This document shows positions 2,202 to 60,250 of a stretch of 64,000 bases of DNA, piece by piece. The stretch lies in the NCBI GenBank assembly GCA_946408595.1, contig CAMJSX010000001.1, forward strand, positions 120,356-184,355, read 5' to 3'. This DNA is from an uncultured Candidatus Saccharibacteria bacterium. GTDB lineage: Bacteria; Patescibacteriota; Saccharimonadia; Saccharimonadales; Saccharimonadaceae. A program made the translations under genes and the position numbers. Position 1 is the first letter of the stretch. Each line of letters opens with the position of its first letter. The notes under the pieces are model-generated. The model made no database searches. It saw nothing but the letters and a program-made list of their open reading frames with translations, and was not told where the DNA came from.

Positions 2202-4622
2202 ATGAAACGTTTAGTAATAATTGACGGTAAATCAGTGTTTTACCGGGGGTACTATGCTATGGGTGCGTTGTCGCTTTTTGATGGTACGCCGACGGGTGGG
2301 GTTTATGGTTTTGCAGCGATTGCTATGGAAATTGTGAAGAAACTTAATCCGACCAAAGTCGTGGTGGCTTGGGATTCAAAAACATCGGTTTCAAAAAGGC
2401 GGGCGATTTATCCTGAATATAAAGCTGGGCGGGTGAAGCCAGGGGAGGATTTTTATACTCAGATTCCATTGCTTGAGGAGTTGATTCATGACTTAGGTTG
2501 GAATTTCGTGGAGATTGATAATTATGAAGCAGATGATATTATTGGGACATTGAGTCGTGAGGCGGATGAAGCTGGTGACTGGGAGACTTATATTATTTCG
2601 TCCGATCTTGATATGCTGCAAATTGTAGATGACAACACGCATATGTGGCGGATTCTGAAAGGGTTTTCGAATATTGAGCAGATTGATGTGTCTGAGTTTG
2701 AAACTAAATATGGTATAAAGAAAGCGCAGTTTTTGGACCTTAAGTCTTTGAAGGGTGATGCTTCTGATAATATCCCTGGAGTTCCTGGGATTGGTGAAAA
2801 AACGGCGGTGAAGCTTTTAAATGATTATGGCACGCTTGATAATATATATAATAATATAGAGCAAATTCCGGGTTCTGTGAGAGGGAAGCTAGAAGCGGGT
2901 AAGGATTCGGCTTATCTTTCACGCAAACTCGCAAAAATTATGTTTGATGCGCCGGTTGATCTTAATGAACTTCCTGAGTTTTCGTTTGACCGCGAAAAGG
3001 TTATCACGGGCCTCAAGAAACTTGAGTTTAATTCGTTGATTCGAAAATTCGTAAAGGAGGGATCCGAAGCAGCGCTCTCTCGGGACGGGTCGCTCGCGCC
3101 CGTCGTTACGGAGCTCGCGCCCTCATCCTCGGTCGTAACCTCCGGAAGCCCTCGAGTAGCGCTATCTTCGGATCCCCTCGAAAACGCCGTTTCATTACCC
3201 GCAGACGCTATTATCGATTTTGATATTAAAGGTTTGATGCACAATGATAAGAAGGTGGCGGGGGAGATTTTGGCGGGGAAGAAGTCGTTTTGGGATTTGA
3301 ATCAGGCGGCGTTTCTTTTGAATCCGCTGGCTAGGGAGAATCCACAGCTAGTAGTGCCGGAAGAAGAGTATCAAAAACAAGCCTTGGAGTTTAGTAAGTA
3401 TCCTCGACTATATAATATATATACTGATTTTGACTTGCCACTGATTCCAGTGCTTTACAAGATGGAAGAAAAGGGGATGCTGATTGACCGCGGGTATTTT
3501 GAAAACTTGCAAAAGGAATACACTGCTGAGGTGCGTCGTCTTGAACAGGAAGTTTATAAGTTGGCAGGCACAGAGTTTAATCTAAATTCGCCGATTCAGC
3601 TTTCGGAGGTTTTGTTTAACACTTTGAATCTTCCGACTAAGGGTGTTAAGAAGACTTCTCGGGGCTATTCTACTGGAGCTAAAGAGCTGGAGAAACTAAA
3701 AGATTCTCACCCGGTGATTCCGAAGATTATTGAGTATCGTGAGGCGGCGAAACTATTGTCGACATATATTATCCCGATGCCGGATTTGGCCGATGATGAC
3801 GGTCGGGTGCATACGACTTTTACTCAGAATGTGACTGCGACTGGACGTTTAAGTTCGAAGGATCCGAATATGCAAAACATTCCGGTGCGTACTGAGGAAG
3901 GGAAGCGAATCCGTACTGGGTTTGTGGCGCCAGAAGGTAAGGTGCTAGTTTCGGCGGATTATTCACAGTTTGAGCTGAGACTTGCGGCGATTTTAAGTGG
4001 AGACCAAAGCTTAATTGATGATTTTAATAATGGGATCGATATTCACACTAAGACGGCGGCGGAGGCTTTTCACGTTCCGTTTGAGCAGGTGACTAAGGAG
4101 CAACGTCGGGCTGCTAAGGTAGTGAACTTTGGAATACTTTATGGTATGAGCGTGAGGGGTTTGTCGGAAGCAGCGAAGATGCCGTTTTATGAGGCGAAAG
4201 AGTTTATCGAGAATTATTTTAGGCTTAGAGCACCGATTAAACAGAAACTAGAGCAGATTTTGAAGCAGGCTAGGGAAGAGGGATTTGTGGAGACTTTTTA
4301 TGGTCGCCGTCGTCCGACTCCTGACGTGAAATCGTCGAACTTTGTAATTCGGCAGGCGGCTGAGCGGGCGGCGATGAATATGCCGATTCAGGGGACGGAA
4401 GCGGATTTGATGAAGCGAGCGATGATTCACGTGGACAAAGCTTTGCCAGAGGGTGCTGAGCTGGTAATGCAGATTCATGACTCGTTGATCGTGGAATGTG
4501 ATGAAGAGCAGGCTGAGAAAGTGGCAGAAATACTGCAGCGCGAGATGGAACATGTTGCGCCAGAACTTGAAGTTAAACTGGCGGTTGAGGTGACGATTGG
4601 TAAGAATTGGGGTGAACTGTAG
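2202..4622 (+). CDS. polA: DNA polymerase I (5'-3' exonuclease + polymerase; reduced/degenerate 3'-5' exo region)
   Basis: Motifs TGRLSSKDPNMQNIPVRTEEGKRIR, SADYSQFELRLAA, RRAAKVVNFGILYGMS, MQIHDSLIVE; N-terminal FEN-like domain with EADDIIGTL. Confidence 0.95.
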   Translation: MKRLVIIDGKSVFYRGYYAMGALSLFDGTPTGGVYGFAAIAMEIVKKLNPTKVVVAWDSKTSVSKRRAIYPEYKAGRVKPGEDFYTQIPLLEELIHDLGWNFVEIDNYEADDIIGTLSREADEAGDWETYIISSDLDMLQIVDDNTHMWRILKGFSNIEQIDVSEFETKYGIKKAQFLDLKSLKGDASDNIPGVPGIGEKTAVKLLNDYGTLDNIYNNIEQIPGSVRGKLEAGKDSAYLSRKLAKIMFDAPVDLNELPEFSFDREKVITGLKKLEFNSLIRKFVKEGSEAALSRDGSLAPVVTELAPSSSVVTSGSPRVALSSDPLENAVSLPADAIIDFDIKGLMHNDKKVAGEILAGKKSFWDLNQAAFLLNPLARENPQLVVPEEEYQKQALEFSKYPRLYNIYTDFDLPLIPVLYKMEEKGMLIDRGYFENLQKEYTAEVRRLEQEVYKLAGTEFNLNSPIQLSEVLFNTLNLPTKGVKKTSRGYSTGAKELEKLKDSHPVIPKIIEYREAAKLLSTYIIPMPDLADDDGRVHTTFTQNVTATGRLSSKDPNMQNIPVRTEEGKRIRTGFVAPEGKVLVSADYSQFELRLAAILSGDQSLIDDFNNGIDIHTKTAAEAFHVPFEQVTKEQRRAAKVVNFGILYGMSVRGLSEAAKMPFYEAKEFIENYFRLRAPIKQKLEQILKQAREEGFVETFYGRRRPTPDVKSSNFVIRQAAERAAMNMPIQGTEADLMKRAMIHVDKALPEGAELVMQIHDSLIVECDEEQAEKVAEILQREMEHVAPELEVKLAVEVTIGKNWGEL
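3060..3175. repeat. GC-rich palindromic element inside the polA reading frame
   Basis: GGATCCGAAG-c-AGCGCT (3060-3076) is the inverted complement of AGCGCT-at-CTTCGGATCC (3158-3175); internal hairpin CCGT-CGTT-ACGG. Confidence 0.7.
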
Positions 4623-21855: not shown

Positions 21856-23316
21856 ATGAAAAAAATTATCACAAAACTAACGGTGGCGATACTAGCGGTA
21901 CTAGCTGCTTTTGGGTTGGCAAGTCCTACCTTGGCTTGGGGCCCAGAACGAACGACCTATACCAATGAGTCGCCAGCCACTTATGCAACATTTAACTCGA
22001 TTACCAACAACGCTGCTGTAGGTGATGAACGAAACTTCGTGAGAGTTGGTGAGGCCAATTCGACCGCGCCATACACAGACGAAATTGAAGTCGTCCCAGG
22101 TAAGGAATATGAGGTGTACATTTATTATCACAATGATGCCGCCTCGAACACAAATGCTAGCGGATATGGTATTGCTACAAATACTAAACTTTCTTCATCT
22201 TATCCAACAAAGCTCACTCCTGGGGAAAGAGGTATGATTTCTGGGATTATTTCCTGGAGTTATGTTAACCCAAGTGATGATAGCGTGAACACTGGTACGG
22301 TGTGGGACGAAGCTTACCTTACGACCAAATCCGACAATGTAGTATTGAGATATAAAACTGGTACGGCGGTGATCCACAATGGCGGTAAAGCCAATGGCTC
22401 GGTTCTTTCGACAAATCTGTTTACTAAAGACGGTACGCCAATCGGATATAACAAGTTGGCTGGTACTATTCCAGGCTGTGCGGAGTATTCGGGCTATATT
22501 ACTTACACCCTCGTAGCAGAAAAAGTTGATGCATCGCTAGAAAAATATGTTTCTACTGATGGTACGAATTGGCAAAAGAATGTCACAGTGAAACCGGGTG
22601 ATTACGTTACATATAAAGTGGTGTTCAAAAACACTGGAAACACCAAGCTCACTAATGTAATTTTTAAAGATGTGCATGACGGTGGTCTTAGTCTCAGATC
22701 TGGCAGCACAAAGGTTTATGATGTTAATAATGTTGATGGGAAAAAGATTGACGATATATTAGATTTGAGTGGTTATAATGTTGGTGATGTGGCTCCTTCT
22801 GCGCTTGTCCAAATTATCTATCAAGATAAGGTTTCTACTGATAAAGCTTATTGTGAAAATACTTTGAACAACACTATTACGGTAAGCTATAATTCGAACT
22901 TATCAAAAGAAGATAGTGCAAGCGTGACAGTGAAATGTGACAAGCCAGTACCTCCTTGTGAGGCTGATCCAAGTTTGCCAGAATGCCAAGAAAAACCCGA
23001 TTGTACAACTAATCCAGAACTACCAGAATGCCAAGAAAAACCAGATTGTACAACTAACCCAGAGTTGCCGGAATGTCAGGAGAAACCCGATTGTACAACC
23101 AATCCAGAACTACCGGAATGCCAAGAAAAACCAACTTGCGACACTAATCCAGAAATGGAAGGTTGTGAGACCCCAGAAGAAATCGTTAGCACTGGTCCTC
23201 TTGAAATTGTTTTAGCGATAGTGATTATACTTGGCATTATCGGTGGCGGATACTACTTCTATCATACTCGTAAGACCTTAAAGGCCGTTGAGAATAAGGT
23301 TTCTGGTGATAGATAA
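21856..23316 (+). CDS. signal-peptide surface protein with DUF11-like domain, Cys-rich repeats and C-terminal TM anchor
   Basis: Signal peptide; TYKVVFKNTGNTKLTNVIFKDV; repeats DCTTNPELPECQEKP; STGPLEIVLAIVIILGIIGGGYYFYHTRK. Confidence 0.75.
   Translation: MKKIITKLTVAILAVLAAFGLASPTLAWGPERTTYTNESPATYATFNSITNNAAVGDERNFVRVGEANSTAPYTDEIEVVPGKEYEVYIYYHNDAASNTNASGYGIATNTKLSSSYPTKLTPGERGMISGIISWSYVNPSDDSVNTGTVWDEAYLTTKSDNVVLRYKTGTAVIHNGGKANGSVLSTNLFTKDGTPIGYNKLAGTIPGCAEYSGYITYTLVAEKVDASLEKYVSTDGTNWQKNVTVKPGDYVTYKVVFKNTGNTKLTNVIFKDVHDGGLSLRSGSTKVYDVNNVDGKKIDDILDLSGYNVGDVAPSALVQIIYQDKVSTDKAYCENTLNNTITVSYNSNLSKEDSASVTVKCDKPVPPCEADPSLPECQEKPDCTTNPELPECQEKPDCTTNPELPECQEKPDCTTNPELPECQEKPTCDTNPEMEGCETPEEIVSTGPLEIVLAIVIILGIIGGGYYFYHTRKTLKAVENKVSGDR
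22956..23169 (+). repeat. 45-bp coding tandem repeat (DCTTNPELPECQEKP), about 4-5 units
   Basis: Repeats read directly in DNA and protein. Confidence 0.9.
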
Positions 23317-29556: not shown

Positions 29557-29633
29557 GGGTGATTAGCTCAGTTGGCTAGAGCGTCTCGTTTACACCGAGA
29601 AGGTCGGGGGTTCGAGCCCCTCATCACCCACCA
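29557..29633 (+). tRNA. tRNA-Val (TAC)
   Basis: Acceptor GGGTGAT/ATCACCC, anticodon loop TTTACAC, T-loop TTCGAGC, A discriminator and CCA. Confidence 0.95.
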
Positions 29634-29723
29634 GACGCAAGTTGCGTCTTTTTTGTGCACGGGGCTCGTTCTTGCGAAGCGAGCCCCTCATCACCCACCA
29701 GACGCATAAGGCGTCTTTTTTGT
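29613..29723. repeat. duplication of the tRNA-Val 3' end plus terminator, separated by a hairpin
   Basis: CGAGCCCCTCATCACCCACCAGACGC-N5-GCGTCTTTTTTGTG occurs twice; second copy preceded by GGGGCTCG-TTCTTGCGAAG. Confidence 0.9.
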
Positions 29724-29824
29724 GTTTTTGAGAGTTTTGGGACATTTGTTGCAAAACTTTGAAATCTAAAAAAATCTTTGGGGTAGATCATGATAAAATC
29801 GAGGCATCAAAAGAAAGGATTTTT

Positions 29825-60079: not shown

Positions 60080-60250
60080 TAGCAAAATCCCTCTCGAGAG
60101 ACGCTTGTTCGCTCCTGTCGTTACAGGGCGAACGGCGCTCAATCCGCTCCTCGTAAGGAGCGGACGCTCTCAAGAGGGCTTTTTGCTATCAAGGTATACT
60201 TCGCTCTTTCGCTCCTCGTAAGGAGCGGATGCTCCTGAAAAGGGAGCTTT
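60080..60250. repeat. nested GC-rich hairpin cluster downstream of rpsA
   Basis: Terminator-like arms TAGCAAAAtcCCTCTcGAGAG/CTCTCaAGAGGgcTTTTTGCTA enclose TTCGCTCCTGT-CGTT-ACAGGGCGAA and TCCGCTCCT-CGTA-AGGAGCGGA; the second hairpin recurs at about 60209. Confidence 0.8.

Follow-up and report, generated by a model that had tools for sequence, protein, structure and literature searches.

A palindrome in frame in polA

Why should a gene for DNA polymerase I carry a long, GC-rich palindrome in the middle of its reading frame? The question is raised by polA in a 64,000-nucleotide stretch of DNA (the window) from an uncultured Candidatus Saccharibacteria bacterium of the Saccharimonadaceae (assembly GCA_946408595.1, contig CAMJSX010000001.1, positions 120,356 to 184,355). 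An original prediction, made from the letters of the window, had described this palindrome as an in-frame insertion. The insertion is real: a 116-nt inverted repeat occupies positions 3060–3175 and the open reading frame (ORF) continues through it. We think it likely that it belongs to a family of non-autonomous palindromic mobile elements that is confined to one family of Saccharibacteria and is analogous to the Rickettsia palindromic elements (RPEs). The element family is previously undescribed; its members lie mostly in frame in essential genes of gut Saccharibacteria, so that the proteins carry an extra piece. Its copies are dispersed, keep their pairing as the stem changes, are retained in open reading frames, and have cores that cluster by genome.

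The polA gene (2202–4622, plus strand) encodes 806 residues and matches the NCBIfam DNA polymerase I model at 850 bits in two stretches. The insert lies in the linker that joins the 5'-3' exonuclease to the polymerase part, and the protein has a reduced 3'-5' exonuclease region. From 11 copies of the element we built our own covariance model, the E-values of which are rough; it matched 3060–3175 with 87.5 bits (E 1.2e-18). The model's orientation B falls on the minus strand, and the copy is thus antisense to polA. Its outer stem is formed by an arm of about 20 nt at 3060–3079 (GGATCCGAAGCAGCGCTCTC) and a second arm at 3154–3175 (GAGTAGCGCTATCTTCGGATCC; both as read on the plus strand), which enclose a conserved core of two hairpins and tandem-GA motifs at 3080–3153. 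The fold of this segment was better than those of all 200 dinucleotide-preserving shuffles (z −2.95 as DNA; −3.2 and −4.6 as RNA of the plus and minus strands), and the palindrome is therefore more than chance.

Related palindromes occur elsewhere in the same genome and throughout the genus. In the window's own assembly (738 kb, 99% complete) a DNA search found the polA copy and six others, with E-values of 9e-30 to 0.002, and the covariance model found nine at E ≤ 1.4e-5, giving at least nine in total. Eight of these are in frame, in genes assigned by NCBIfam as dnaX, obgE, der, valS, rlmD, leuS, polA and lepA. The hypervariability of the PolA linker within the genus might have favoured a chance palindrome in GC-rich sequence, but a next-best copy at E 9e-30 in the same genome and hundreds of copies in relatives refute this idea, to which we give practically no weight.

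The ninth copy, at 60091, is intergenic. It spans 60080–60190 on the minus strand (core match 60091–60176; 64 bits, E 1.1e-12), so the likeness that had been seen between the polA palindrome and hairpins at 60080–60230 was correctly drawn. One end of its outer stem is a T-rich arm (GGGCTTTTTGC), and for this reason the copy may double as a terminator. The hairpin that follows it at 60205–60245 (CGCTCCTCGTAAGGAGCG) has only the CGTAA loop in common with the element and lacks the core; it may be half an element or a terminator.

The copies in this genome share about 75 nt of core sequence; their outer arms vary between copies yet are complementary within each. The repeat unit proposed in the original prediction thus needs correction: the palindrome stands, but the GGATCCGAAG arms are private to the polA copy and the common part is the core between them. 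The observation that the element is GC-rich extends to the whole family (65.5% GC in the core against 44.4% in the flanks). In PolA, the segment encoded by the core includes SLAPVVTELAPSSSVVTSG. In an AlphaFold model, residues 266–333, which include the insert, had a predicted local distance difference test score (pLDDT) below 50, and this suggests that the region is disordered, in a model that is weak as a whole (mean 60, 10 sequences).

In the PolA proteins of this genus most of the 3'-5' exonuclease region has been lost, and in its place is a hypervariable linker, the length of which varies among species even where the element is absent.

A three-way junction, with one strand probably under selection

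The unit of about 115 nt folds as a three-way junction, in which the conserved core of about 75 nt is closed by an outer stem of about 20 bp. Read in orientation B, it consists of an outer arm, YGA, GGRGC, a variable hairpin, GAG, a conserved hairpin (GCGAGCCCCGTRRCGACGGGCGCGAGC), GCGTYCC, GA and the other outer arm. The core therefore holds a short GGR/YCC stem, the variable and conserved hairpins, and tandem G·A steps, with GA opposite GA two times in YGAR/CGAG contexts. In such contexts tandem sheared G·A pairs form in both RNA and DNA. No Rfam family matches the element.

Pairing is preserved as the sequence changes. Among 121 aligned copies there were 302 cells in which both sides had changed, compared to 94 in shuffles, and the covariation score was 0.393 (0.157 when shuffled). 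The outer stem differs from copy to copy and its pairing is kept, at 81–95% through position 20 with a sharp drop past about 21; in 97.6% of 212 copies, the two arms paired better than the 99th percentile of combinations made by exchanging arms among loci. Some copies (L111 2047–2163, L119 2067–2184 and L016 1273–1392) have an extra hairpin of about 30 nt (CTCGCCCCTTGGGACGCGAATTGCCGAAGGCAA) in an apical loop, which looks like another small element inserted into the first.

Copies are found in the sense of orientation B (126) and antisense (59) to the host ORF, and in different frames, with the same base consensus. A conserved peptide per element was looked for in these copies and is not present: the copies are read from either strand and in more than one frame, so what is conserved is DNA or RNA. 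Mismatches in the outer stem point to the strand concerned. Read on the B strand, G·T mismatches outnumbered A·C mismatches by 144 to 64 (p 3e-8, a value that somewhat overstates independence, as the copies share ancestry). This bias was strongest in the antisense copies (61 versus 13), where the mRNA is the other strand. Because the bias holds on one fixed strand even there, the unit under selection is probably the folded B strand, as single-stranded DNA or as RNA of that strand, and not the host mRNA.

Host genes and reading frame

Among the copies with enough flanking sequence, 185 of 205 lie inside an open ORF (about 180 on a safer count, as a few calls at the extreme end of an ORF, such as an antisense ORF over 60091, are doubtful). 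None of the 20 copies outside ORFs clearly disrupts a gene, and one or two are doubtful in this respect. If a frame is drawn at random through a copy, the chance that it is open is 51% on the B strand and 76% on the A strand; the near-universal openness that we observed therefore indicates selection for translation. Compared to element-free orthologues, the net insertion had a median length of 102 nt and was a multiple of three in 49 of 54 cases.

An insert that is removed from the message, as a small intron or a translationally bypassed segment, would also present a strong conserved hairpin within conserved proteins, with both edges joined by a stem. Removal would make the frame irrelevant, yet the frame is kept far more often than a random one, insertion lengths are multiples of three, and at most one or two copies look gene-breaking. 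In addition, the pairing constraint tracks the strand of the element and not the mRNA. Splicing and bypass were rejected on the frame statistics, and we regard removal from the message as very improbable.

The hosts fall into 48 gene families. They include tRNA synthetases (Ile/Val/Leu, Arg, Ala, Phe and Trp/Tyr), Der, ObgE, BipA, LepA, DnaX, GyrA, PolA, UvrB, UvrC, DNA ligase, TopA, MnmA, TruB, GatA, GatB, TsaE, Dus, an IPP transferase and RlmD. Since the coding density of such genomes is about 90%, the point of note is that copies are not depleted from essential genes, rather than that they are enriched in them. One of the Ile-tRNA synthetases (L125, in G006) contains several further in-frame GC-rich inserts (e.g. 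STGDAAGGTPAARNEASTVGETAVAGPVERPG) that the model does not match, pointing to more element families.

Distribution among Saccharibacteria

The genomes searched were metagenome-assembled-type records or assemblies. With the covariance model at E ≤ 0.1, all 24 of the genus genomes searched had copies, and none of 16 genomes from other families did. The insert is accordingly not conserved in the PolA of distant Saccharibacteria, and the PolA linker is element-free in several members of the genus as well. A wider scan found the element in 155 of 173 genus members and, elsewhere in the family, in 35 genomes of other genera; in 294 genomes sampled across the order all matches fell within this one family. 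An assembly artefact is unlikely because independent binning projects agree. Copy number ranged from 1 to about 30 per genome of 0.6–0.8 Mb, and positions differed greatly between species.

A 25-base core pattern, searched in a genome collection, was found in Saccharibacteria only among the 80 matches listed; these came mostly from the ruminant digestive tract and some from termite gut (the termite origin being read from record names). Phage and plasmid records contained no match to the element; two pattern matches in viral contigs gave at best a 22-base partial match to the model, and carriage by phages or plasmids was rejected. We found no relevant paper on palindromic repeats in Saccharibacteria in the open-licence literature.

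These data also bear on whether the element is a functional chromosomal motif, a binding or structured site of the kind proposed for some repetitive extragenic palindromes (REPs), that is selected and homogenised by gene conversion and is not selfish. A conserved core with drifting arms, a fold preserved on a fixed strand, and the presence of copies in almost all members of the genus would all be expected of such a motif. Such a motif is harder to reconcile with the great variation among species in positions and copy numbers, with hosts in 48 unrelated gene families and both orientations, or with the 18 genus members that gave no match above threshold. We consider this explanation unlikely.

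Evidence for and against mobility

Mobility of the element is supported by the clustering of cores within genomes and by occupied and empty sites, the transposition event itself not being observed. For 51 of 113 copies the nearest-neighbour core was in the same genome, compared to 12.8 expected and a maximum of 27 in 1000 shuffles. The site and the orientation of a copy within a given gene can differ from one species to another; in PolA, for example, the copy of the window's genome is oriented opposite to those of G018 and G009. A conserved site in Val-tRNA synthetase (LWEIAYDDIIVSTTRPE) holds three different copies in the occupied species and is empty in several others.

Several observations weigh against this interpretation. 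The nearest occupied and empty pairs are about 75–88% identical, so no recent jump was caught, and the likeness of cores within a genome could partly reflect gene conversion. Direct repeats of 2–9 bp beside the stem, as would mark a target-site duplication, were at control level. No mobilising enzyme was identified among the candidates sought in genus genomes: a Y1_Tnp/RAYT gene was present in 0 of 15, and no TnpB-like family was found in those searched. Reverse transcriptase genes were found in 10 of 15 genus genomes, and a search of nine other families found none. They are missing from G000, G003, G004 and G010, all of which bear copies. As the window's own genome and the copy-rich G003 and G004 have none, a reverse transcriptase is not required in the same genome. 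Finally, several copies with identical or near-identical cores carry unrelated arms that still pair, which is not readily explained by simple copying of the whole unit.

The reverse transcriptases (L288, L289 and other places in G001–G014) are 380–460 residues long and are possibly of the diversity-generating or retron type.

How, then, do the arms arise? In pairs of copies with near-identical cores, the arms show some average similarity through position 20 and none past it. The pattern suggests that an element brings its arms along when it moves and that the two arms afterwards change quickly and together. Selection on pairing could drive this rapid joint change, or else template switching from one arm to the other as the DNA is replicated. 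Alternatively, about 20 nt of the target might be duplicated in inverted form around the core at each insertion, and one of the arms would then come from the host. Arms are indeed locus-specific even where cores are identical, and at single loci, e.g. L200_365 and L104_1980, one arm looks host-derived. When 35 loci were compared with empty sites, however, their arms were no closer to the host sequence than the arms of other loci (median p 0.50; 3% with p<0.05), and at the conserved Val-tRNA synthetase site both arms are new. An inverted duplication of the target is thus not supported as the source of the arms, and we judge it improbable.

If the copies are mobile elements, as we favour, the element would spread as new copies at further sites, and one particular strand, folded on itself as single-stranded DNA or as its RNA, would be recognised by an enzyme. 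Insertions that break genes would be lost. Those that are in frame, free of stops and at protein surfaces or linkers would survive as short, hydrophilic, probably disordered segments, and copies in essential genes would persist, as only an exact in-frame removal would be tolerated. The original prediction of an analogous selfish or hairpin repeat in this lineage holds for the repeat family; that it is selfish is something we infer. A more specific proposal, that the element is recognised by structure, with one folded strand moved by an undescribed enzyme and an outer stem that varies freely, and that it has become a main source of the in-frame insertions carried by essential proteins throughout the genus, is possible and is offered tentatively.

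Comparison with known palindromic repeats

RPEs are 105–146 bp long, form a long stem-loop, and are scattered in frame in unrelated conserved proteins and also between genes (PMC2229807, PMC10969869). Neither source describes their mobiliser. The parallel with RPEs that had been suggested fits in size, in the palindrome and in the in-frame insertion in unrelated proteins: the unit here, with its 20-bp outer stem, falls within about 105–150 bp with terminal inverted repeats, and is likewise fused in frame to unrelated conserved proteins. It differs in belonging to another phylum, and in its three-way junction, tandem G-A steps and variable outer stem. Furthermore, 90% of copies are in ORFs, compared to about half of RPEs in the review, the use of both strands and several frames leaves no single conserved peptide, and insertion into RNA genes was not seen within the window. 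In the reading that we favour, the Saccharibacteria family is probably independent of the RPEs in sequence; the comparison covered their published descriptions.

The REPs that carry a CGTC tag, which include RPE-4, RPE-6 and dRS3, are also palindromic, have no dedicated transposase, and have intragenic copies in DNA replication and repair genes (PMC3733652). They are single hairpins of 20–40 bp, with an 8–9 bp stem, a loop of 4–5 nt, a 5' CGTC tag and a CCA tail (PMC3733652). By consensus and structure the element described here is not of this type, being about 115 nt long, with branched hairpins and no such tail. It shares the palindrome with GTAG REPs, from which the absence of a Y1_Tnp/RAYT gene in the 15 genus genomes searched separates it. 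In RAYT and IS200-type systems, palindromes are recognised as folded single-stranded DNA. Integron attC sites are likewise palindromes of variable sequence constrained by the fold of one strand. The copies of the element differ in being dispersed singly inside genes and not in cassette arrays. Miniature inverted-repeat transposable elements (ERIC, Correia, RUP) are short, non-autonomous and bounded by inverted repeats, with some in-frame fusions (PMC2229807). The present element differs from them in that its terminal inverted repeats are not conserved, the outer arms differing among copies with identical cores, and in that target-site duplications are absent.

Rickettsia and Wolbachia are the best-known hosts of in-frame palindromic elements. 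The family described here, probably independent of theirs, belongs to ultra-small bacteria of a distant phylum; a genome of 0.6–0.8 Mb can hold as many as about 30 copies, and most copies lie within genes, those for replication proteins and tRNA synthetases among them. Hundreds of copies are available, from over 150 species, so one can now test how such elements move, why essential genes of reduced genomes tolerate them and whether they feed new segments into proteins. For annotation, it matters that the inserts can pass for lineage-specific domains.

Two further repeats were seen in the window. The 3' end of a tRNA-Val with its terminator (29613–29657) is repeated 67 nt downstream at 29680–29724, with 91% identity over 45 nt, and resembles an integration or duplication scar. 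Tandem repeats of 45 bp lie at 22964–23143.
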